A stretch of DNA of 64,000 bases. Source: Hydrogenophaga sp. BPS33 (GTDB taxonomy: Bacteria > Pseudomonadota > Gammaproteobacteria > Burkholderiales > Burkholderiaceae_C). The stretch lies in NCBI RefSeq assembly GCF_009859475.1, contig NZ_CP044549.1, forward strand, positions 3,286,001 through 3,350,000, in the 5' to 3' direction. The notes under the pieces are model-generated. The model searched no databases, was not told the origin of the DNA, and was given only the letters and a program-made list of their open reading frames with translations. Shown here in pieces: positions 29,907 to 46,687 of the stretch. The first letter of the stretch is position 1. Every line of letters begins with the position of its first letter. The translations under genes were made by a program, and so were the position numbers.

Positions 29907-33954
<4,048 letters not shown>

Positions 33955-38315: not shown

Positions 38316-39269
38316 ATGCCGATGGTGGTTCAGGAATGCGATGTGACGACGCTGGCGCCCAACGCCCCCAGCACCCCGCCTACCGTCGTGACCGATATTC
38401 CGCCCGACTGGCATGAGCTCTGGTCCCAAGTGCTGCAGGCGGCTGCGACCGCCAGCACGACCCGCCTGTTGAGCCATGCCAGCGGACGCGGCTGGGTTCT
38501 GTCGGGCCGGTGCAGCGAGCGCAGCGCAGCCTTGTTCGGCCTGTACAAACCCGTGCTCGATGCCCGCACGGCGCGCCGCCACGCGCCCTTGTCGATGCCC
38601 TGGGTGGTGGCGCAGATGGGGCAAAGCCTCGATGGTTTCGTGGCCACCTCGACGGGAGACTCCTACTACGTCAACGGCCCGCATGGGCTGCTGCACCTGC
38701 ACCGCCTGCGCGCTCTGTGCGACGCGGTGATCGTGGGCGCGGGCACGGTGGCAATCGACAATCCGCAACTCACCACGCGGCGTGTGCCCGGGCCACAACC
38801 GGTGCGGGTCGTGATGGACCCTTCGGCGCGGCTCGACGGGCAGTCCCGCGTGTTCCACGATGGCCAGGCACCCAGCCTCTGGCTCTGCGACACGCGCCAC
38901 GCAGCGCTGGCCCGTCGGCGCCTGGGCGCGTCAGCGCCCCACACCACCGAGGTGCTCGCGGTGGACGGCTTGCTCGACGGCACCGGCACCTGCCGGCCGG
39001 AGCGTGCCGTGGCTGCGCTCGGCCTGCGCGGGTTCTCGCTGCTCTTCGTGGAGGGCGGCGGCACGACCGTGTCGCGCTTCTTCAGGGCGGGCGTCATCGA
39101 CCGCCTGCACCTGGTCATCGCCCCGGTGCTGATCGGCAACGGCCGCCGCGGTCTGCAGGTGCCGGCGCACGAAGTCATGGCCGATTGCCCGCGTCCACGC
39201 GCACGCACCCTGGCCCTGGGCGAAGACATGTTGTGGGACCTGGCGCTGCGCCCGGGCGAGCTTCAGTGA
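38316..39269 (+). CDS. RibD-like pyrimidine reductase family protein
   Basis: The product has 317 residues. An N-terminal extension of about 90 residues (WHELWSQVLQAAA...) precedes a RibD C-terminal / dihydrofolate-reductase-like domain: VVAQMGQSLDGFVATSTGDS, AVIVGAGTVAIDNPQLTTRR, and the NADPH loop LLFVEGGGTTVSRFF followed by LVIAPVLIGNGRRGL. RibD-type domains reduce the ribosyl of a pyrimidine intermediate in flavin or deazaflavin synthesis. There is no deaminase domain, and no other riboflavin genes are nearby. Its 3' end overlaps that of the convergent methyltransferase by 7 bases; the neighbouring PTPS-like gene suggests a pterin-type pathway (inference). Confidence 0.88.
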   Translation: MPMVVQECDVTTLAPNAPSTPPTVVTDIPPDWHELWSQVLQAAATASTTRLLSHASGRGWVLSGRCSERSAALFGLYKPVLDARTARRHAPLSMPWVVAQMGQSLDGFVATSTGDSYYVNGPHGLLHLHRLRALCDAVIVGAGTVAIDNPQLTTRRVPGPQPVRVVMDPSARLDGQSRVFHDGQAPSLWLCDTRHAALARRRLGASAPHTTEVLAVDGLLDGTGTCRPERAVAALGLRGFSLLFVEGGGTTVSRFFRAGVIDRLHLVIAPVLIGNGRRGLQVPAHEVMADCPRPRARTLALGEDMLWDLALRPGELQ

Positions 39270-40108
39270 GGCGGCAGCGCGAGCAGGTCCACATGGCCCA
39301 CGCGCAGACAGCTCGCGCCGACCACGGACGCTCTTCTTTCGCGCCAGGCCCGTAGCAACGCGCTGGACTGGGGCCCTTGCTCACACGCAGCGGCTGCCAT
39401 GCCGTCGACCAAGGCGCGCTGCAGGCCGACGGCGGGTGCGCCCGCGCGGCCATCGATCCACCAGTCGCTCGGTGCGGTGAACACGCGGTAGCCGGCGTCG
39501 CGCAGCGCACGCCGGCAGACGCCGATCGCGTCAGCGCCCAGCGCGGGGCCAAACCCCTTGTCTCGCCGTTGGTGGGCGCGGAACAGCCGGGCCACCGTGG
39601 CGTCGCCCGGTTCTGGGGGTGACCAGACATGGCGGCCATCGACATTGAGCGTGAACAACACGGTTGCGCGCGCCGCCGCGATGTGGGCCAGCGCCTGCCG
39701 CAGCCAGGCCAGGCCCACCAGATCGAGCAACGCCGAGGCCGTGACCAGATGGGCCGCGTGCCAGGGCAAGCGGTCGACGTGCTGCGCCAGATCGGTCCGC
39801 TGCCGCACCGTGCGGGCCTGAAAACCCGGGCCCGACAGGGCCGGCGGCAGGCGCTGCAACAGCGCGGCGTCGTGGTCGAGCATCAACCACTCTTGCTCGC
39901 CGCCCAGCACGGGCGCCAGCCAGCGCAGATTCGCGCCGGTGCCGCAGGCCAGATCGATCACGCGCCACGGCACACCCTGCGGCGGCCGAAGCGCGCTCAA
40001 GCGGGTCGGCAAGCGCAGGCGGCCCGCTGCGCCATTTCGAGCTGCCGCGTCGAAAGGCTCTCTTTGCCGCAGCCAATCGGCGCTGAAGCTGGCCTTGGGG
40101 TCTTTCAT
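39263..40108 (-). CDS. SAM-dependent methyltransferase, last gene of the pterin-like operon
   Basis: This 281-residue class I methyltransferase has motif I VIDLACGTGANLRWLAP (about 58-74), an acidic residue after strand 2 (WLMLDHDAALL) and ASALLDLVGLAWLRQAL in the motif IV region. The N-terminus carries FSADWLRQREPFDAAARN. It begins by ATGA overlap with the glycosyltransferase gene stop. The acceptor is unknown; position suggests it modifies the product of the upstream glycosyltransferase and oxidoreductase. Confidence 0.85.
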   Translation of the reverse strand: MKDPKASFSADWLRQREPFDAAARNGAAGRLRLPTRLSALRPPQGVPWRVIDLACGTGANLRWLAPVLGGEQEWLMLDHDAALLQRLPPALSGPGFQARTVRQRTDLAQHVDRLPWHAAHLVTASALLDLVGLAWLRQALAHIAAARATVLFTLNVDGRHVWSPPEPGDATVARLFRAHQRRDKGFGPALGADAIGVCRRALRDAGYRVFTAPSDWWIDGRAGAPAVGLQRALVDGMAAAACEQGPQSSALLRAWRERRASVVGASCLRVGHVDLLALPPH

Positions 40109-41157
40109 GCCACCCCCTCCAGCACGGCCGCGAAGCGCGCTGCCTGTTGCGGCCATGTGGGCAACTGCCGGGCCGCTGCGCGGGCGCCTTCGGCCAGGTG
40201 CGCGCGCAGTCCGGCGTCGGTGATCACGCGTGCCAATGCCGCTTGCAAGGACAGCGCATCGCCGGCGGGCACCAGCAGGCCAGCAGCGCGAGGCAAGGTG
40301 TGGGCCAACGCGCCGCCATCGGTGCAGACCACCACAAGGCCATGGGCGATCGCCTCGGCCACCACCATGCCGTAGCCCTCGTACAGCGACGGCAGCACGA
40401 AAACATCGGCCGCGGCGTAGTGGGCGTGCAGGGCCGCAGCGGGCAGTTCGCCGTGCCAGACCACGCGCTCGCCCAGGGGCGCGGCCTGGGCTTGCACGCG
40501 CGCGGCGGTGCCTGGCGCCCGCGCGGTGCTGCCTACGAGATGCAGCACCCACGGCAAATGCACCAGCCCGGCCAGCGCTTCCAGCAGCACGGCGTGCCCT
40601 TTGCGCGGTGTGAGCGTGGCCACGCAAAGCAACTGGACCGGGCCACCTTCGTGGCGTGGCGCATGGCTCGGCGACACCGCATCGGTGCCCGGCTCCACCA
40701 CCGCGATGCGGTCCAAACGAACCCCCATGGCCGCCACGTCGTCCACCGTGCTGCGGCTGGTCACCACGACGTGCCGCGCGAGTTGCAAGGCCTGTGATTC
40801 ACGGGCCTGCAAACGGGAGCGTTCGTGCGCGTCCAACCCTGTCTCCAGGTGCAGAGGGTGGTGCACCAGCGCCACCCAGCGCAACCGTTGGGCATGAGGC
40901 TGCACCTGTTGCGCCAGGCCACCAAAGGCCAGGCCATCGGCGACCACCAGGGCGCCATCGGGCAAGGCCGCGATGCGGCCCGCCGCATGGGCGAGATCGG
41001 CGGCCTCTGCACGCGGCCAGCAGCCCTCGAGCGTGTGCACGTCCACCGTCCAGCCCGCCTCGCGCAAGGCCAGCACCAGCCGGCGGTCGTAGGTGTATCC
41101 ACCAGTTGGCGTGTTCCAGTCGCCCGGTATCAGGACATGGCAAGCCCGCTCGGCCAT
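40105..41157 (-). CDS. GT4-like glycosyltransferase
   Basis: The 350-residue GT-B enzyme has a glycine-rich N-terminal loop (HVLIPGDWNTPTGGYTYDRR), LLCVATLTPRKGHAVLLEAL at the domain junction and the donor-site E-x7-E pattern in PSLYEGYGMVVAEAIAHG. There is no membrane helix. It transfers a sugar from a nucleotide donor; acceptor and sugar are unknown. It starts 4 bases after the PTPS-like gene and overlaps the methyltransferase gene, so it is firmly part of this operon. Confidence 0.88.
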   Translation of the reverse strand: MAERACHVLIPGDWNTPTGGYTYDRRLVLALREAGWTVDVHTLEGCWPRAEAADLAHAAGRIAALPDGALVVADGLAFGGLAQQVQPHAQRLRWVALVHHPLHLETGLDAHERSRLQARESQALQLARHVVVTSRSTVDDVAAMGVRLDRIAVVEPGTDAVSPSHAPRHEGGPVQLLCVATLTPRKGHAVLLEALAGLVHLPWVLHLVGSTARAPGTAARVQAQAAPLGERVVWHGELPAAALHAHYAAADVFVLPSLYEGYGMVVAEAIAHGLVVVCTDGGALAHTLPRAAGLLVPAGDALSLQAALARVITDAGLRAHLAEGARAAARQLPTWPQQAARFAAVLEGVA

Positions 41158-41161
41158 CGGT

Positions 41162-41596
41162 TCAGGCGCCCGTGTGCGCCGGTAGCGCACCCTCGTGGGC
41201 CGCCCACGCCACGTGCGATTCGTGCAGCGTGACACGCATCTGTTGCAGGCCACTGGCCGTGGCCGTGGGCGCGGCGTGCGGTCCCATCGCGCCGGCGGCG
41301 ATGCGCGCGGCGATCCGGTCGAAGATCGCCCGCGCCAGAAATTCGGTCGTGGTATTGCGGCCTCGGAACTCAGGCACCTCGTCCAGGTTGCGGAAGTTGA
41401 GCGCGGCCAGTTCGTCGCGCAGCACCTGTGTGGCCAGGCCGATGTCGACCACGATGCCATCGGGGTCGAGCGCCTCGCGGCGCAGCTCCAGATCGACCAC
41501 GTAGGTCGCGCCATGCAGGCGTTGCGCGGGGCCGAACACCGCGCCCTGGAAGCTGTGGGCAATCATGAAATGGTCTCTGACGTTGACGGCGTACAT
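41162..41596 (-). CDS. PTPS/QueD-like protein with altered zinc and catalytic residues
   Basis: The 144-residue protein has the 6-pyruvoyl/6-carboxytetrahydropterin synthase fold pattern: DHFMIAHSF with His14, [26 protein letters not shown] and [11 protein letters not shown]. In true members the second zinc motif is HGH preceded by a catalytic Cys four residues before it; here His28 remains but the second His is Ala30 and the Cys position is Ala24. So only two of three usual zinc His are seen and the Cys is missing. It may bind a pterin or dihydroneopterin-like ligand with different chemistry. Confidence 0.82.
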
Positions 41597-41603
41597 GGGG
41601 CTC

Positions 41604-42611
41604 TCAAGGTAGGGGTGGGTAATCGATGCGCTGGCACAGCGTCGCCGGTGCGCCAGAGCCGGCCAGGCGCTCCAGCACCTGCGGCAGTTCCGCGAACGGC
41701 GCGGTGTCGGTGATGAGACGGTCCAGCACCGGAGCGGTGAGCAGCGAAAGCGCCAGCTCCAGCCGCGTGCGGTGGCTCCAGCGCCCACGTTGCCGGGGCG
41801 CCACGTGGCCGACCTGCGAGCTCTTGAGCGTGAGCCGCTGCGAATGGAAGGCCTCGCCCAGCGGCACGCTGACGGCACGGCTGCCGTACCAGCTGAGTTC
41901 CAACACGGTGGCTTCGAATGCGGCCAGGTTCAGCGCGGTGGCCAGTCCGGCCGGCTGTCCGCTGGTGTGGATGACCAGATCGGCCGGCGTGCGCGCCTGT
42001 GCCGGCAGGGCGAAGTCCGCACCCAGCGCGGCGGCGATGCCGGCACGCGAAGGGTTGGTGTCCACCACCTGCACCGAGCCTTCGGGCAAGCGCGCGGCCA
42101 GCCAGGCCACCAGCAGACCCAGCGTGCCACCACCCACCACGGCAATGTGCTGACCGGGGCTGGGGTTGGCATCCCAAAGGGCGTTGATGGCGGTCTCCAT
42201 GTTCGCTGCCAGCACGGCGCGCGCGGCCGGCACGCCGTCGGGCAGCGGCACCACTGCGGTGGCCGGCACCTGGAACACGGTTTGGTGCGGGAACAGGCTG
42301 AACACGGTGCGCCCGAGCAGCTCGGGTTGCCCTGCCTCGACCACACCCACGTTCACGTAGCCATACTTCACCGCGCCGCCGAAGCTGCCGGCCTGGAACG
42401 GGCCGCGCATGCGCTCGAACTCGCTGGTGGGCACCTCGCCGCGAAACACCAGGCCTTCGGTGCCCCGGCTCACGGCGGTGTGCAGGGTGCGCACGCGGAC
42501 CTCGCCCTCGCCCAGGGCGGGCAGCGTTTCGGGGCGAATCTCGGCCCGGCCGGGCTCGACCACCCAACAGGCGTGGGCCAGCACTGCAGGGGCATCGTCG
42601 ACAAGGGTCAT
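41604..42611 (-). CDS. Zinc-type (MDR) dehydrogenase of the pterin-like operon
   Basis: This 335-residue medium-chain dehydrogenase/reductase has a GroES-like N-terminal half ([29 protein letters not shown]) and a Rossmann half with [19 protein letters not shown]. The catalytic-zinc Cys is replaced by Ser (AVSRGTE) and the structural-zinc cysteines are absent, as in bacteriochlorophyllide/threonine-dehydrogenase-like side branches of MDR. It is the first gene of the minus-strand operon, 7 bases before the PTPS-like gene, and is divergent from the phosphatidyltransferase gene. The substrate is unknown. Confidence 0.85.
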
Positions 42612-42699: not shown

Positions 42700-43491
42700 A
42701 TGAAAACCGCCCGCCCAGCTCCAGCTTCTCACGACGCCCTTGCGCAGGTCTTCGGCGCACTGCGGCGCGACGCGGCGCGTGAGCTCATCGCCATGGGTGC
42801 GCTGGTATTGGCGCTCGCGTGGTTCCTGAGCGACATGGCGGGCCTGGGCGTGGACTACCGCCTCAAGGCTTTGCTGTGTTTTGCGGCCGGTGCCGCGCTG
42901 GTCTGGCGTGGTCTGCCCCACCATCCGCACCCGCGCTTCGGCCCGGCCAACCGCGTGACGCTGGCGCGCCTGGCCCTGATGGCCCTGGTCGCGGCCCTGA
43001 TCGGCGAAGCCCTGCCCCGCCCGCCCCTGAGCGCCACCTCTCCCGCCGTGTGGTGGCTGGTGGTCGTGGCCACGGCCACGGCGCTGCTCGATGCGGTGGA
43101 CGGCGCACTGGCGCGCCGCACCGGGCTGTCCAGCGTCTTCGGTGCACGCTTCGACATGGAGACCGACGCCGCCTTCACCCTCGTGCTCTGCGCGCTGGTG
43201 CTGCAGGCTGGCCAGGCGGGGCCCTGGGTGCTCGCCTCGGGCCTGATGCGCTATACCTTCGTGGCCGCGGCCCGGCATTGGCCGTGGCTGAGCGCGCCGC
43301 TGGCGCCGAGCAAGCGCCGCCAGACGGTGTGCGTGGTCCAGATCACGGTGCTGATCGTGTGCCTGGGCCCGATCGTGCCGCCGTGGCTGGCCAGCGCGCT
43401 GGCAGCACTCGGCCTCGCCTTGTTGACCCTCTCGTTCGCCACCGACGTGCGAACCCTGGCGCGCCTGCGCCCCACTCCCCTGGAGGCCTGA
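42700..43491 (+). CDS. CDP-alcohol phosphatidyltransferase
   Basis: The 263-residue integral membrane protein has the complete family motif D-x2-DG-x2-AR-x8-G-x3-D-x3-D: Asp131, Asp134, Asp152 and Asp156. About six membrane helices are seen. The enzyme joins a CDP-activated alcohol (often CDP-diacylglycerol) to another alcohol in the inner membrane. The ATG at 42700 is preferred; the open frame upstream overlaps the divergent MDR gene. The YceI gene starts 2 bases after its stop. A role in making a special phospholipid or lipid carrier for the neighbouring glycosyltransferase is plausible. Confidence 0.9.
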   Translation: MKTARPAPASHDALAQVFGALRRDAARELIAMGALVLALAWFLSDMAGLGVDYRLKALLCFAAGAALVWRGLPHHPHPRFGPANRVTLARLALMALVAALIGEALPRPPLSATSPAVWWLVVVATATALLDAVDGALARRTGLSSVFGARFDMETDAAFTLVLCALVLQAGQAGPWVLASGLMRYTFVAAARHWPWLSAPLAPSKRRQTVCVVQITVLIVCLGPIVPPWLASALAALGLALLTLSFATDVRTLARLRPTPLEA

Positions 43492-43493
43492 CC

Positions 43494-44093
43494 ATGCGAA
43501 TGCCGTTTCTCTCTACCGCCGCCCTGTCGCTGCTACTCGCCACGGGCACCCCGGCCCAGGCGCAGGCCGCGCGCTACCAGCTCGATCCGGACCACATCAC
43601 GATCGGCTTTCTGGTCGACCACATCGGCTACGCCAAGGTGCTCGGCATGTTCCGCGCGGCACGCGGCAGCTACCGCTTCGACGAGGCGAGCGCCACGCTG
43701 TCCGAAGTGCGCATCGAGGTCGAGTCCGCCAGCGTCTTCACCAACCAGCGCAAGCGCGACGACCACCTGAAAGGCCCCGACTTTCTCAACAGCGGCGAAT
43801 TCCCGCGCATGGTCTTCACCGCCAGCGGTGCCAAGCGCACGGGCGAGCGCACGTTCGAGATCGCCGGCCAGCTCGAACTGTTGGGCAAATCCTTGCCGCT
43901 GACGCTGCAGGCCACCTGGAACAAGAGCGCCGAATCGCCCATGGGCGGCCCGCTGAGCAAGCCCTACACGATGGGCGTCTCCGCCCGTGGCAGCTTCAAA
44001 CGCAGCGCCTATGGCATGAACTACGCGGTGGCCAACGGCTGGGTGGGCGACGAGGTGCCGCTGATCATCGAGTTCGAAGCGGTCCGTCAATGA
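43494..44093 (+). CDS. Periplasmic YceI family protein
   Basis: This 199-residue precursor has a signal peptide (MRMPFLSTAALSLLLATG..., cleavage near AQA-AR at 25). The mature part is the YceI lipocalin-like barrel: YQLDPDHITIGFLVDHIGYA, FDEASATLSEVRIEVESAS, DDHLKGPDFLNSGEFPRMVF and the late RSAYGMNYAV. YceI proteins bind isoprenoid or other long lipids. Here it could carry a lipid product of the phosphatidyltransferase encoded just before it (inference). Confidence 0.9.
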   Translation: MRMPFLSTAALSLLLATGTPAQAQAARYQLDPDHITIGFLVDHIGYAKVLGMFRAARGSYRFDEASATLSEVRIEVESASVFTNQRKRDDHLKGPDFLNSGEFPRMVFTASGAKRTGERTFEIAGQLELLGKSLPLTLQATWNKSAESPMGGPLSKPYTMGVSARGSFKRSAYGMNYAVANGWVGDEVPLIIEFEAVRQ

Positions 44094-44103
44094 GCCGCTT
44101 CGT

Positions 44104-45792
44104 GTGAGCACAGCCCCGCCATCGGTGCTCGGCTGGCTGTGGCGCTTCACCCTGGCGTTCGGGGTGCTGAACACGCTGCTGACCTTCGAAAACCGCTGGC
44201 CGGGTTTTGGCGTGCACGTCATGCCGCGCCTGTCGTTCGAGCTGTGCGTGGGCGTGGCGCTGCTGCTGGCCTGGGTGGCGTGGCGGGGAGCGCTGTCCGC
44301 GCGCGGTGCGACGGTGGCGACCCTCGGCTTCGTCGTGCTCGTCGCCGTGCGTTACGCCGACGTGACCGCGCCCGCGGTCCTGGGCCGCCCCGTCAACCTG
44401 TTTTGGGATGGACGCCATGGCGCCGAATTGCTGCGCCTTGCCGCGCAATCGTCTTCCACCGAGCAGTTGACCCTGGGGACGATCGCGCTGGTGCTGGGCA
44501 CCTTGCTGCTGTTCTTCACAACGCGTGCGGCCATTGCCCTGCTGGCCCGGTGTCTCCGCTGGAAGCCACCGCGTCCCTGGCTGTTGACCGCCGTGACGGC
44601 TCTGGCCTTGAGCTTTGCCGCTTACGCACCCGATAGGCGAGACACGCGCTGGTTTTTTTCCCTGCCGCTCACGCCCACGTTGTGGCACCAGGCTCACTTG
44701 CTGGCGGGCGCGTGGTGGCCGGCACACCGCGAGGCGGCGCTTGGCCCTGGCCCGGCATTCGACGGTGATTTGTCCGGTCTGGTGGGCGCGCAGAGTCCGG
44801 CGGACGTGCTGCTGGTGTTCGCCGAGTCGTACGGAGCCGTGACCTTCGACCATCCGGATCAAGCCACCGCATTGGCCGCTGCCCGCGCGGCCCTGGACAA
44901 CGCCATCCACCTCAGCGGACGCACTGTGGTGACGGGGCGCGTCACCGCACCTACCTTCGGCGGCGCGTCGTGGTTGTCGCATGCGGCGTTGCTCGCGGGC
45001 GTGGACACCTCCCAACCCGCCGACCACGACCTGCTGCTCGCCAGCCAACGGCCTACCCTGGTGAGCCACTTCGCACGCCATGGCTACCGCACGGTGGGCT
45101 GGATGCCCGGCCTCAAACGACCTTGGCCCGAGGGTGCTTTCTATGGATTCGAGCGCCTCGCCGACGATGCGGGCATCGGCTATCGCGGCCCGGACTTCGG
45201 CTACTGGCGCATTCCCGATCAGGCCGCAATGGCGCTGCTGCATGCGCAGGAACTCGGGCCGCCTCGTTCGTCGGCACAGCCGCGCTTCGTCTTCTTTCCG
45301 ACCACCAGCACCCACGCCCCGTTCTACCCACTCGCGCCGATCGCACCGGACTGGTCGCGCCTGAGTGGGCCCGATGCCTACACCCAGGCGCAAGTCCAGT
45401 CGGCACTGGCCCAGCCACCCTCGCCACAGCAGACCATGGCGCGCTACATCGACAGCTTGCGCTACCAACATGCGTGGATGGCGGACTTCCTCCAACACCA
45501 CGCGTCGCCTTCCCTGGTGATGGTGGTGCTGGGTGACCACCAGCCGCCCGCGCTGGTCAGCGGACCCAAGGCATCGTGGGACGTGCCAGTGCATGTGATC
45601 AGCGACAACCGGGCCTTGCTGCAACGCTTGCTGGGCAGCGGGTTCGTGCCCGGTCTGGTGCCGCCTCCACACGCGCTGGGGCCCCTGCATGCCCTGACGC
45701 CCATTCTTCTCAAAGCGTTCGAAGCGCCGAGCGCGCACGAGTCGACGGGGGTCGAACACGTCTCCACCTCAAGCGCTTCTCCCGGCTCCTGA
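44104..45792 (+). CDS. LTA-synthase-like membrane sulfatase-family protein
   Basis: The product has 562 residues with a GTG start 11 bases after the YceI gene. About five membrane helices fill the first 180 residues; the rest is a periplasmic alkaline-phosphatase-fold domain: DVLLVFAESYGAV, nucleophile-region PTFGGASWLSHAALLAGV, FGYWRIPDQAAM, VFFPTTSTHAPFY and VMVVLGDHQPPA. Family members move phosphoglycerol or phosphoethanolamine onto glycans or lipid A. The nucleophile is probably the Ser of GGAS. It would act on envelope polymers with groups from a phospholipid, which fits the phosphatidyltransferase in the same gene set. Confidence 0.85.
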   Translation: MSTAPPSVLGWLWRFTLAFGVLNTLLTFENRWPGFGVHVMPRLSFELCVGVALLLAWVAWRGALSARGATVATLGFVVLVAVRYADVTAPAVLGRPVNLFWDGRHGAELLRLAAQSSSTEQLTLGTIALVLGTLLLFFTTRAAIALLARCLRWKPPRPWLLTAVTALALSFAAYAPDRRDTRWFFSLPLTPTLWHQAHLLAGAWWPAHREAALGPGPAFDGDLSGLVGAQSPADVLLVFAESYGAVTFDHPDQATALAAARAALDNAIHLSGRTVVTGRVTAPTFGGASWLSHAALLAGVDTSQPADHDLLLASQRPTLVSHFARHGYRTVGWMPGLKRPWPEGAFYGFERLADDAGIGYRGPDFGYWRIPDQAAMALLHAQELGPPRSSAQPRFVFFPTTSTHAPFYPLAPIAPDWSRLSGPDAYTQAQVQSALAQPPSPQQTMARYIDSLRYQHAWMADFLQHHASPSLVMVVLGDHQPPALVSGPKASWDVPVHVISDNRALLQRLLGSGFVPGLVPPPHALGPLHALTPILLKAFEAPSAHESTGVEHVSTSSASPGS

Positions 45793-46569
45793 GCGCGCGT
45801 CGAGCCAGGCGTGCACGTCGCCCGAGGGCGCGTCGGCTGGCAGGTCGCGCAGCCACTGGCACATCGCGTGGGCAGAGCCGCCGTCGGAATCGAGCAAGCG
45901 CAGCCGTTCGCCGATGGACACCGCGTAGCGATAGCGGCCGGGGCCGGCCAGCCACTCCAGCCGGTCGATGCATCCGAGGGCGACATCGCGCACGGCGGGC
46001 AGGAACTCGAAGGACAACGCCGGCAGTGGCTGGCTCAAACCCCGCAGCACCTCCAGTTCGAAGCCCTCCACATCGATCTTCACGAAATCGGGAGTGCCGT
46101 AATGGGCGATCAACATGTCCAAGGTGCCGACCGCGACCAACGGCCCCTCGTGCCAGCGCACCCTCTGGAAGGACGGGGCGGCACCCGCGCGCCGCACGAA
46201 GTCGGTCGACAAAGTCGCCACCGTCGGCGTGCGCGGACTCGCCATCAAGCGCGCGTGTCCAGGCGCGCTGGCGAGCGCCTGGGGCAGCACGACCACCTGC
46301 ACATCGTCACCGAAACGGCGCTGCAGCAGGCGCACGAAATCCGCCTGGGGCTCCAGCGCGACCACGCGGGCGCCGAGCGCCCGAAACGCCGCCACACGAT
46401 TCCCTGCATGCGCTCCAACGTCAAACGCCAAACCACTTGCAGGCACAAAGCGCCGGTAGAAGCGCCGCAGTTGCGCGCCGCGCCAGGGGATGGCGCGGTA
46501 CACAAGCCAGGAGCGCAAGAGACCAAGTTGTCGGTCGCAGCGCAATCGAAGGGAGGAACCTCGGGACAT
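45769..46569 (-). CDS. FkbM-family methyltransferase
   Basis: The 266-residue protein has motif I LAFDVGAHAGNRVAAFRALG, acidic motif VVALEPQADFVRLLQRRFG and the FkbM-specific VKIDVEGFELEVLRGL. FkbM-type enzymes are O-methyltransferases acting on polyketides or sugars. The ATG at 46569 is preferred to one ten codons further up. It converges on the sulfatase-family gene with a 24-base overlap, so it could modify the same glycan. Confidence 0.88.
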   Translation of the reverse strand: MSRGSSLRLRCDRQLGLLRSWLVYRAIPWRGAQLRRFYRRFVPASGLAFDVGAHAGNRVAAFRALGARVVALEPQADFVRLLQRRFGDDVQVVVLPQALASAPGHARLMASPRTPTVATLSTDFVRRAGAAPSFQRVRWHEGPLVAVGTLDMLIAHYGTPDFVKIDVEGFELEVLRGLSQPLPALSFEFLPAVRDVALGCIDRLEWLAGPGRYRYAVSIGERLRLLDSDGGSAHAMCQWLRDLPADAPSGDVHAWLDARSGAGRSA

Positions 46570-46687
46570 CACGCTATTGTGCGAGGGGGAAACCGCCATC
46601 GGAGGTCATAGGAACTGCCGTGCAGGCGTTGTTACGCATTTGCCATTCAGTGTGCCGCAGACCCGGTCCACCCAGTGGAGGCCTCCC

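Follow-up and report, generated by a model that had tools for sequence, protein, structure and literature searches.

A subfamily of COG0720 termed PTPS-IV, with gene neighbours of the families PF00925 and PF01872, was reported in 2017 (AGeNNT, 561 sequences; PMC5445326). Here we describe a set of five genes around a PTPS-IV gene at positions 38316 to 42611 of a 64,000-nucleotide stretch of the Hydrogenophaga sp. BPS33 genome (contig NZ_CP044549.1, positions 3,286,001 to 3,350,000), the whole of which is called the window below. Besides PTPS-IV, the set comprises genes for an MDR-superfamily oxidoreductase (MDR), a GT4-family glycosyltransferase (GT), a methyltransferase (MT) and a RibD_C-type reductase (RibD_C). 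The gene unit, its conservation, the protein families and the active-site residues that were lost or kept are observations; judged from these, we predict with a probability of roughly 0.6 that the genes together specify a single dedicated pathway, which would start from an early intermediate of riboflavin type and lead to a sugar-bearing methylated product. According to the original prediction, no described pathway with this set was known. This stands in so far as our literature search, outside which most subscription papers lay, found no paper on the whole MDR-PTPS-IV-GT-MT-RibD_C set, but has to be qualified in that PTPS-IV with RibA/RibD_C neighbours (PMC5445326) and the structure 3d7j were on record. 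The window proteins were scanned with Pfam and NCBIfam, and the five genes are as follows.

38316..39269, plus strand: RibD_C-type reductase paralogue (PF01872, 129.3 bits, residues 95-278)
39263..40108, minus strand: class I S-adenosylmethionine-dependent methyltransferase (MT) of a divergent family (PF13649, 25.3 bits, cut-off 27)
40105..41157, minus strand: GT4-family glycosyltransferase (GT; PF00534, 100 bits)
41162..41596, minus strand: PTPS-IV (COG0720 subfamily, motif FGPAQ), not QueD (PF01242, 81.9 bits)
41604..42611, minus strand: MDR-superfamily (zinc-ADH-like) oxidoreductase (PF00107, 26.3 bits, cut-off 31.8; Rossmann motif GGGTLG)

On the minus strand, the MDR and PTPS genes are separated by 7 bases and the PTPS and GT genes by 4, the spacing of GT and MT is -4 (an ATGA overlap), and the convergent RibD_C and MT genes share 7 bases at their 3' ends; when the coordinates were re-read from the sequence, these values from the original prediction proved exact to the base. 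The family scans were clear for RibD_C, GT4 and PTPS, whereas the MT and MDR proteins of the window score below the Pfam cut-offs, although conserved families stand behind both.

The gene set recurs in other genomes. When one genome was searched for each species, at least 540 PTPS-like relatives turned up among at least 592 matched stretches; the 80 best formed the first set, which leans toward near relatives. Partners were located by tblastn: GT was found near PTPS-IV at 80/80 loci, MT at 79/80, MDR at 73/80 and RibD_C at 68/80, and these counts, like those of the other partners in this set, are lower bounds because several contigs are short. A second, even sample consisted of 37 loci, 26 from the window's phylum (window omitted) and 11 from the phylum of G817, the genome holding locus L119 and a metagenome-assembled genome (MAG) whose label, Acidimicrobiia, is the basis of its putative phylum assignment; G817 itself was omitted and a genome with an 86-bit match (L204) was retained. 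Thirteen hidden Markov models (HMMs), built from the 80 loci, were applied to this sample, which has one genome in common with the first set (L113 = L171). They detected MDR at 37/37 loci, GT at 36/37, MT at 33/37 and RibD_C at 29/37, and all 13 were without match in 20 control stretches (20 kb each, drawn from 20 of the 37 genomes). The partner counts at the 80 and 37 loci, with none in the 20 controls, show that the association is not due to chance; the five families do co-occur in other genomes, and their failure to do so would have refuted the original prediction. Among evenly drawn genomes, PTPS-IV reached at least 153 bits in 27/398 of the window's phylum (own genome included; next best 59 bits) and at least 195 bits in 11/297 of G817's phylum (G817 included), with one more at 86 bits.

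RibD_C and PTPS-IV occupy opposite strands at 69/69 and 28/29 of the loci that have RibD_C in the two sets, the exception being L190; L232 is a further one. A CDP-alcohol phosphotransferase gene is divergent in 46/48 and 22/22 of the loci having it in the expected place. Moreover, GT and MT form a single open frame at 4/80 loci and at 6 of the 36 loci with a PTPS score of at least 100 bits (10 in total). Pairwise divergences of six proteins are correlated (0.78-0.86, from 92 loci, or from 68 where the CDP-alcohol enzyme is one of the pair), which can be explained from shared descent alone. A PTPS-IV match was present in 19 plasmid records, and five of the eight looked at in detail bear the core order MDR-PTPS-GT-MT (Rhizobium sp. 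SL42, Methylosinus trichosporium OB3b, Thiodictyon, Streptomyces fungicidicus and S. globisporus); RibD_C accompanies it on all of these except that of S. fungicidicus. On the Arthrobacter StoSoilB13 plasmid, MDR, PTPS and GT were seen. Variovorax paradoxus is another bearer of the cluster, and no CDP-alcohol gene lies close to the cluster of M. trichosporium OB3b. The same gene set also occurs in MAGs labelled Acidobacteria (L092, L099). Across several bacterial phyla, the order and orientation of the genes are for the most part maintained, and this conservation, together with the GT-MT fusions, indicates that the genes form one functional unit, as had been supposed.

The alignment assigns the PTPS-like protein to PTPS-IV and not to QueD. 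Residues F21 G22 P23 A24 Q25 are invariant in 39/39 aligned rows and form FGPAQ, the signature described for PTPS-IV (PMC5445326). His14, His28 and Glu126 are likewise invariant in the 39 rows, and HGA replaces the HGH of QueD's CxxxHGH motif in all of them. Relative to QueD chains, Cys27 is exchanged for Ala24, His33 for Ala30, Asp70 for Asn67 and His71 for Phe68; the catalytic Cys, Asp and His of QueD and one zinc His are absent. The protein scores 42.4 bits against TIGR03367 (cut-off 89.25), and its predicted structure is 0.6 Å from SCO6650 (3d7j). A separate QueD-like gene of the genome adjoins a QueE-like gene (by eye; C1:4257308), and no queuosine gene was seen beside PTPS-IV within the window. 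The PTPS-like protein is thus not an ordinary QueD in a queuosine context, a finding that would have refuted the original prediction. In 13/19 plasmid records with a match, PTPS-IV is annotated as 6-carboxytetrahydropterin synthase, and this queuosine enzyme label stands although the examined relatives lack the triad and one zinc ligand; the gene that usually bears it very likely does something else.

The nature of the putative substrate is suggested by RibD_C and by GTP cyclohydrolase II. No Pfam domain besides PF01872, and no deaminase domain, was detected in the RibD_C-like protein; its N-terminal ~90 residues, in which no deaminase motif was seen, are variable and nearly absent in L185. 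Its best matches in the PDB are 6p8c (2,5-diamino-6-ribosylamino-4(3H)-pyrimidinone 5'-phosphate reductase) and 2azn (putative 5-amino-6-(5-phosphoribosylamino)uracil reductase). Scores are below the equivalog cut-offs (TIGR01508, 85.4 versus 186.45 bits; TIGR00326, 98.6 versus 156.35), and by its sequence the window's RibD_C is a divergent paralogue of the ribosylaminopyrimidinone phosphate reductases. A full RibD is encoded elsewhere in the genome, in a ribD-ribE-ribBX-ribH-nusB operon (by eye). GTP cyclohydrolase II was found near PTPS-IV at 18/80 and 18/37 loci. The zinc motif Cx10CxC is present in 35/35 copies of the two locus sets, in 2/2 Streptomyces copies and in L231, and the two copies that were scanned both exceed the TIGR00505 cut-off. 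Because relatives add this enzyme, the gene set indeed seems to act on GTP-derived heterocycles, as the original prediction had it; the accompanying claim that riboflavin genes are missing holds for this window, but not for those relatives.

The position of E. coli Tyr105 is Tyr in all 35 GTP cyclohydrolase II copies compared from the two locus sets and in Rhizobium SL42, and Met in 2/2 Streptomyces cluster copies. Met at this position is presumably characteristic of SCO6655, an enzyme that keeps the formyl group, and a formyl-keeping GTP cyclohydrolase II is thus predicted for these two Streptomyces clusters; as a general rule it is excluded by the Tyr in 35/35 copies. Tyr-type enzymes should have no need for separate deformylation. 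A creatininase gene, found near PTPS-IV at 15/80 and 8/37 loci, is present in both Streptomyces clusters with the Met-type enzyme, and the creatininase-family protein BrbF deformylates the intermediate concerned in Sinorhizobium (PMC9478397). The window's genome has three creatininases, of which the best-scoring (C1:3640180) stands among catabolic and transport genes (by eye), and they were discarded as cluster members. In this genome a single domain resembling GTP cyclohydrolase II was found (C1:4086000-4096000, L228); it is of ribBX type and without the zinc cysteines. A TIGR00505 match above cut-off is missing in 53/60 genomes of the window's family, one of the 53 (G162) reaching 176 bits.

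Next to the core, the window holds four further genes.

42700..43491, plus strand: CDP-alcohol phosphotransferase, transcribed divergently from MDR, with an uncertain start codon (PF01066, 53.8 bits)
43494..44093, plus strand: YceI-family protein (PF04264, 122.4 bits)
44104..45792, plus strand: sulfatase/alkaline-phosphatase-superfamily protein, a frequent neighbour (PF00884, 28.1 bits)
45769..46599, minus strand: FkbM-family methyltransferase, a frequent neighbour (TIGR01444, 73.5 bits)

In the 80-locus and 37-locus sets, respectively, the CDP-alcohol phosphotransferase was found at 53 and 22 loci, the sulfatase at 37 and 13, YceI at 35 and 4, FkbM at 22 and 11, an LPG_synthase_TM protein at 10 and 12 and an OpgH-like protein at 6 and 12. 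YceI is common in near relatives only, and its membership in the cluster is doubtful. The OpgH/MdoH-like glucosyltransferase recurs near PTPS-IV in L230 (6079-7881), where it is directly divergent from the MDR gene, in L120 (16988-18958) and in L086 (4405-6321). A gene annotated 'cytochrome b' adjoins RibD_C in Rhizobium SL42 and Thiodictyon (L231, 12026-12565; L232, 11528-12085). Control of the cluster by an FMN or other riboswitch was rejected, as no such match reached gathering score either at the cluster in the window or at those of 7 relatives; a cobalamin riboswitch match was noted in L195 (18260-18326, ~8 kb from PTPS-IV) and a tRNA in L110. Elsewhere in the window, an nhaA-I RNA (RF03057, 44.4 bits, gathering 37) at 31355-31411 on the plus strand sits inside the 5' part of frame 31002-32783, the product of which resembles an NhaA-type antiporter by eye.

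Among the tailoring enzymes, MDR has an invariant Ser48 (26/26 rows), located roughly at the catalytic Cys of 4ilk in a HMMER alignment that is weak in that stretch (12.7 bits, one-residue gap), and polyol dehydrogenases are among its closest relatives of known structure (weak matches). The nearest solved relatives of GT4 are Tll1590 and inositol-lipid and inositol-phosphate glycosyltransferases, a common outcome for this family. Of 30 MT relatives, 29 have a PF13649 match with E<=0.01, and a profile search of the PDB gave no relative of MT at E<=0.01. CDP-alcohol phosphotransferases share the motif D-xx-DG-xx-AR-x8-G-xxx-D-xxx-D, which is intact in the window protein (DAVDGALARRTGLSSVFGARFDMETD); the best curated matches of this protein are pgsA, archaetidylinositol phosphate synthase and phosphatidylinositol (PI) phosphate synthase, all far under cut-off. 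Together, these enzymes would be consistent with a product that carries a sugar, a methyl group and a phosphorylated side chain and that may be linked to a lipid.

For the pathway, we infer all substrates, reactions and their order. GTP cyclohydrolase II, the gene of which lies beside PTPS-IV in about one quarter to one half of relatives and which would otherwise be supplied from elsewhere, would open GTP to yield 2,5-diamino-6-ribosylaminopyrimidinone 5'-phosphate, and the creatininase-family protein would strip the formyl group where the cyclohydrolase is of the formyl-keeping type. RibD_C would turn the ribosyl into a ribityl side chain; lacking a deaminase domain, it would leave the 2-amino-4-oxo edge in place. 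PTPS-IV would bind this edge, probably via the conserved Glu126, yet perform no classical PTPS chemistry; its reaction would probably be a condensation, an isomerisation or an aldol-type step that proceeds without the usual zinc site. The compound on which the set acts could be the early riboflavin-type intermediate or a pterin derived from it. MDR might then oxidise or reduce a side-chain carbon, GT4 attach a sugar and MT a methyl group, and attachment to a phospholipid via the CDP-alcohol phosphotransferase is possible. The glycoconjugate originally envisaged is partly supported: the set seems to act on a GTP-derived heterocycle and includes genes for sugar and methyl transfer, and the product may be a pterin or a ribityl-aminopyrimidine and may be secreted or membrane-linked.

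Several observations weigh against this proposal. We know of no compound, activity or mutant for the gene set. GTP cyclohydrolase II was found at merely 18/80 and 18/37 loci and creatininase at merely 15/80 and 8/37; creatininase also adjoins Tyr-type GTP cyclohydrolase II, e.g., in Halomonas, and no intact copy of this cyclohydrolase was seen in the genome from which the window comes. A Pfam scan of 10 recurrent neighbour frames gave no FolE, with no GTP cyclohydrolase I model run on the loci. Glu126, which we take to be the counterpart of the pterin-binding Glu of QueD, lies beyond the point where the alignments to QueD chains end. RibD_C was not found at 8/37 loci, of which some are truncated where a contig ends, nor within +-9 kb of PTPS-IV in S. 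fungicidicus. L182 and L183 are without MT match and have GT located apart, and the 86-bit case L204 shows MDR, PTPS and a weak GT only. Finally, two Streptomyces plasmids (L233, L234) carry PTPS-IV without the cluster. Both of these genes lie near MBL-fold, cupin, sigma-70 and BTAD-regulator genes, surroundings that possibly represent a second PTPS-IV context in Streptomyces.

Alternatively, the set could form a pterin glycoside pathway as in cyanobacteria, in which PTPS-IV would close or rearrange the ring, the reductase would act on the pterin and GT would yield the glycoside. A T-fold enzyme with such chemistry exists, as GTP cyclohydrolase I closes and rearranges the ring after formate release. 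We nevertheless regard this pathway as rather unlikely, given that PTPS-IV is without the catalytic triad and one zinc ligand, that the cyclohydrolase near it is of type II, with a pyrimidine as its product, and that the nearest solved relatives of RibD_C act on riboflavin precursors.

The recurrent CDP-alcohol phosphotransferase beside MDR, outside 38316..42611, would fit a lipid link. Its intact motif in the window, its occurrence at 53/80 and 22/37 loci, the use of phosphorylated alcohols by its best curated matches (all far under cut-off) and the presence of LPG_synthase_TM at 10/80 and 12/37 loci would be in keeping with a phospholipid or glycolipid that has a GTP-derived heterocycle as head group. 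The CDP-alcohol enzyme would join the ribityl phosphate to a lipid, and the LPG-synthase-type membrane protein would move the product. At its fullest, this would imply a new class of bacterial cell-envelope lipid. Its head group, a GTP-derived pyrimidine or pterin of the 2-amino-4-oxo type carried on a ribityl phosphate, would be the work of MDR, PTPS-IV, RibD_C, GT4 and MT, with the CDP-alcohol phosphotransferase making the link to the lipid. To our knowledge, no such lipid has been described, and no CDP-alcohol gene was found near 27/80 and 15/37 PTPS-IV genes, some of them on short contigs. A heterocycle-headed lipid appears improbable, and we hold a whole new lipid class to be equally so.

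Unrelated sets might also lie side by side, with riboflavin or queuosine paralogues next to an envelope glycosylation operon. In line with this, the envelope-type genes (sulfatase, YceI, OpgH-like) differ from group to group and PTPS-IV genes without the cluster exist. However, MDR, PTPS-IV, GT and MT stand together in most loci, the orientation of RibD_C is kept, GT-MT fusions occur and the controls gave 0/20; juxtaposition is ruled out for the MDR-PTPS-GT-MT core and very doubtful as a whole.

Archaeal F420 biosynthesis shares the early pyrimidine steps. A search for CofH gave no match in the window's genome; 22/50 PTPS-IV genomes matched at E<=0.001, three at more than 100 bits (G817, G821, G637) and the others below 36 bits, none above the curated cut-off, while 11/14 control genomes matched, three above cut-off. 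Because CofH exceeds the cut-off in 0/50 PTPS-IV genomes, a role of PTPS-IV in F420 synthesis, with the cluster as a variant of that route, does not fit and is dismissed for these bacteria as highly implausible, even though such a role is listed as unpublished (White), with no data in that listing (PMC5041015).

We thus favour the dedicated pathway to a sugar-bearing methylated product. Since PTPS-IV occurs in 27/398 genomes of the window's phylum and the set in Streptomyces plasmids and Acidobacteria-labelled MAGs, such a GTP-derived product is probably widespread. As far as we know, the function of PTPS-IV has been open since its structure was solved; the identity of the product would settle it and might bring to light a new cofactor, pigment, signal or lipid, for which the cluster offers a clear set of knock-outs.

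Compared with known systems, the locus agrees with the PTPS-IV of the AGeNNT report in the FGPAQ motif, in the PF01872 neighbour of window and relatives and, in relatives but not in the window, in the PF00925-type neighbour (PMC5445326). The neighbourhood section of that report (PMC5445326) names no MDR, GT4, MT or CDP-alcohol partner, and it calls PF00925 FolE2, whereas the PF00925 proteins of relatives score as GTP cyclohydrolase II here. In structure, the PTPS-IV model is close to SCO6650 of Streptomyces coelicolor, for which we know of no assigned function. The cyanobacterial tetrahydrobiopterin glucoside pathway likewise combines a PTPS-family protein with a glycosyltransferase; it depends on active PTPS and on GTP cyclohydrolase I, whereas in the cluster the PTPS triad and one zinc His are replaced and the cyclohydrolase is of type II. 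In the archaeal riboflavin/F420 route, ArfC is presumably the reductase step. The early steps of that route (GTP cyclohydrolase III, ArfB, ArfC) and the bacterial BrbF resemble the proposed pathway in that a cyclohydrolase, a deformylase and a reductase act successively on GTP (PMC9478397). The cluster differs in that no deaminase, lumazine synthase or riboflavin synthase was seen in it, and genes for sugar and methyl transfer stand in their place.

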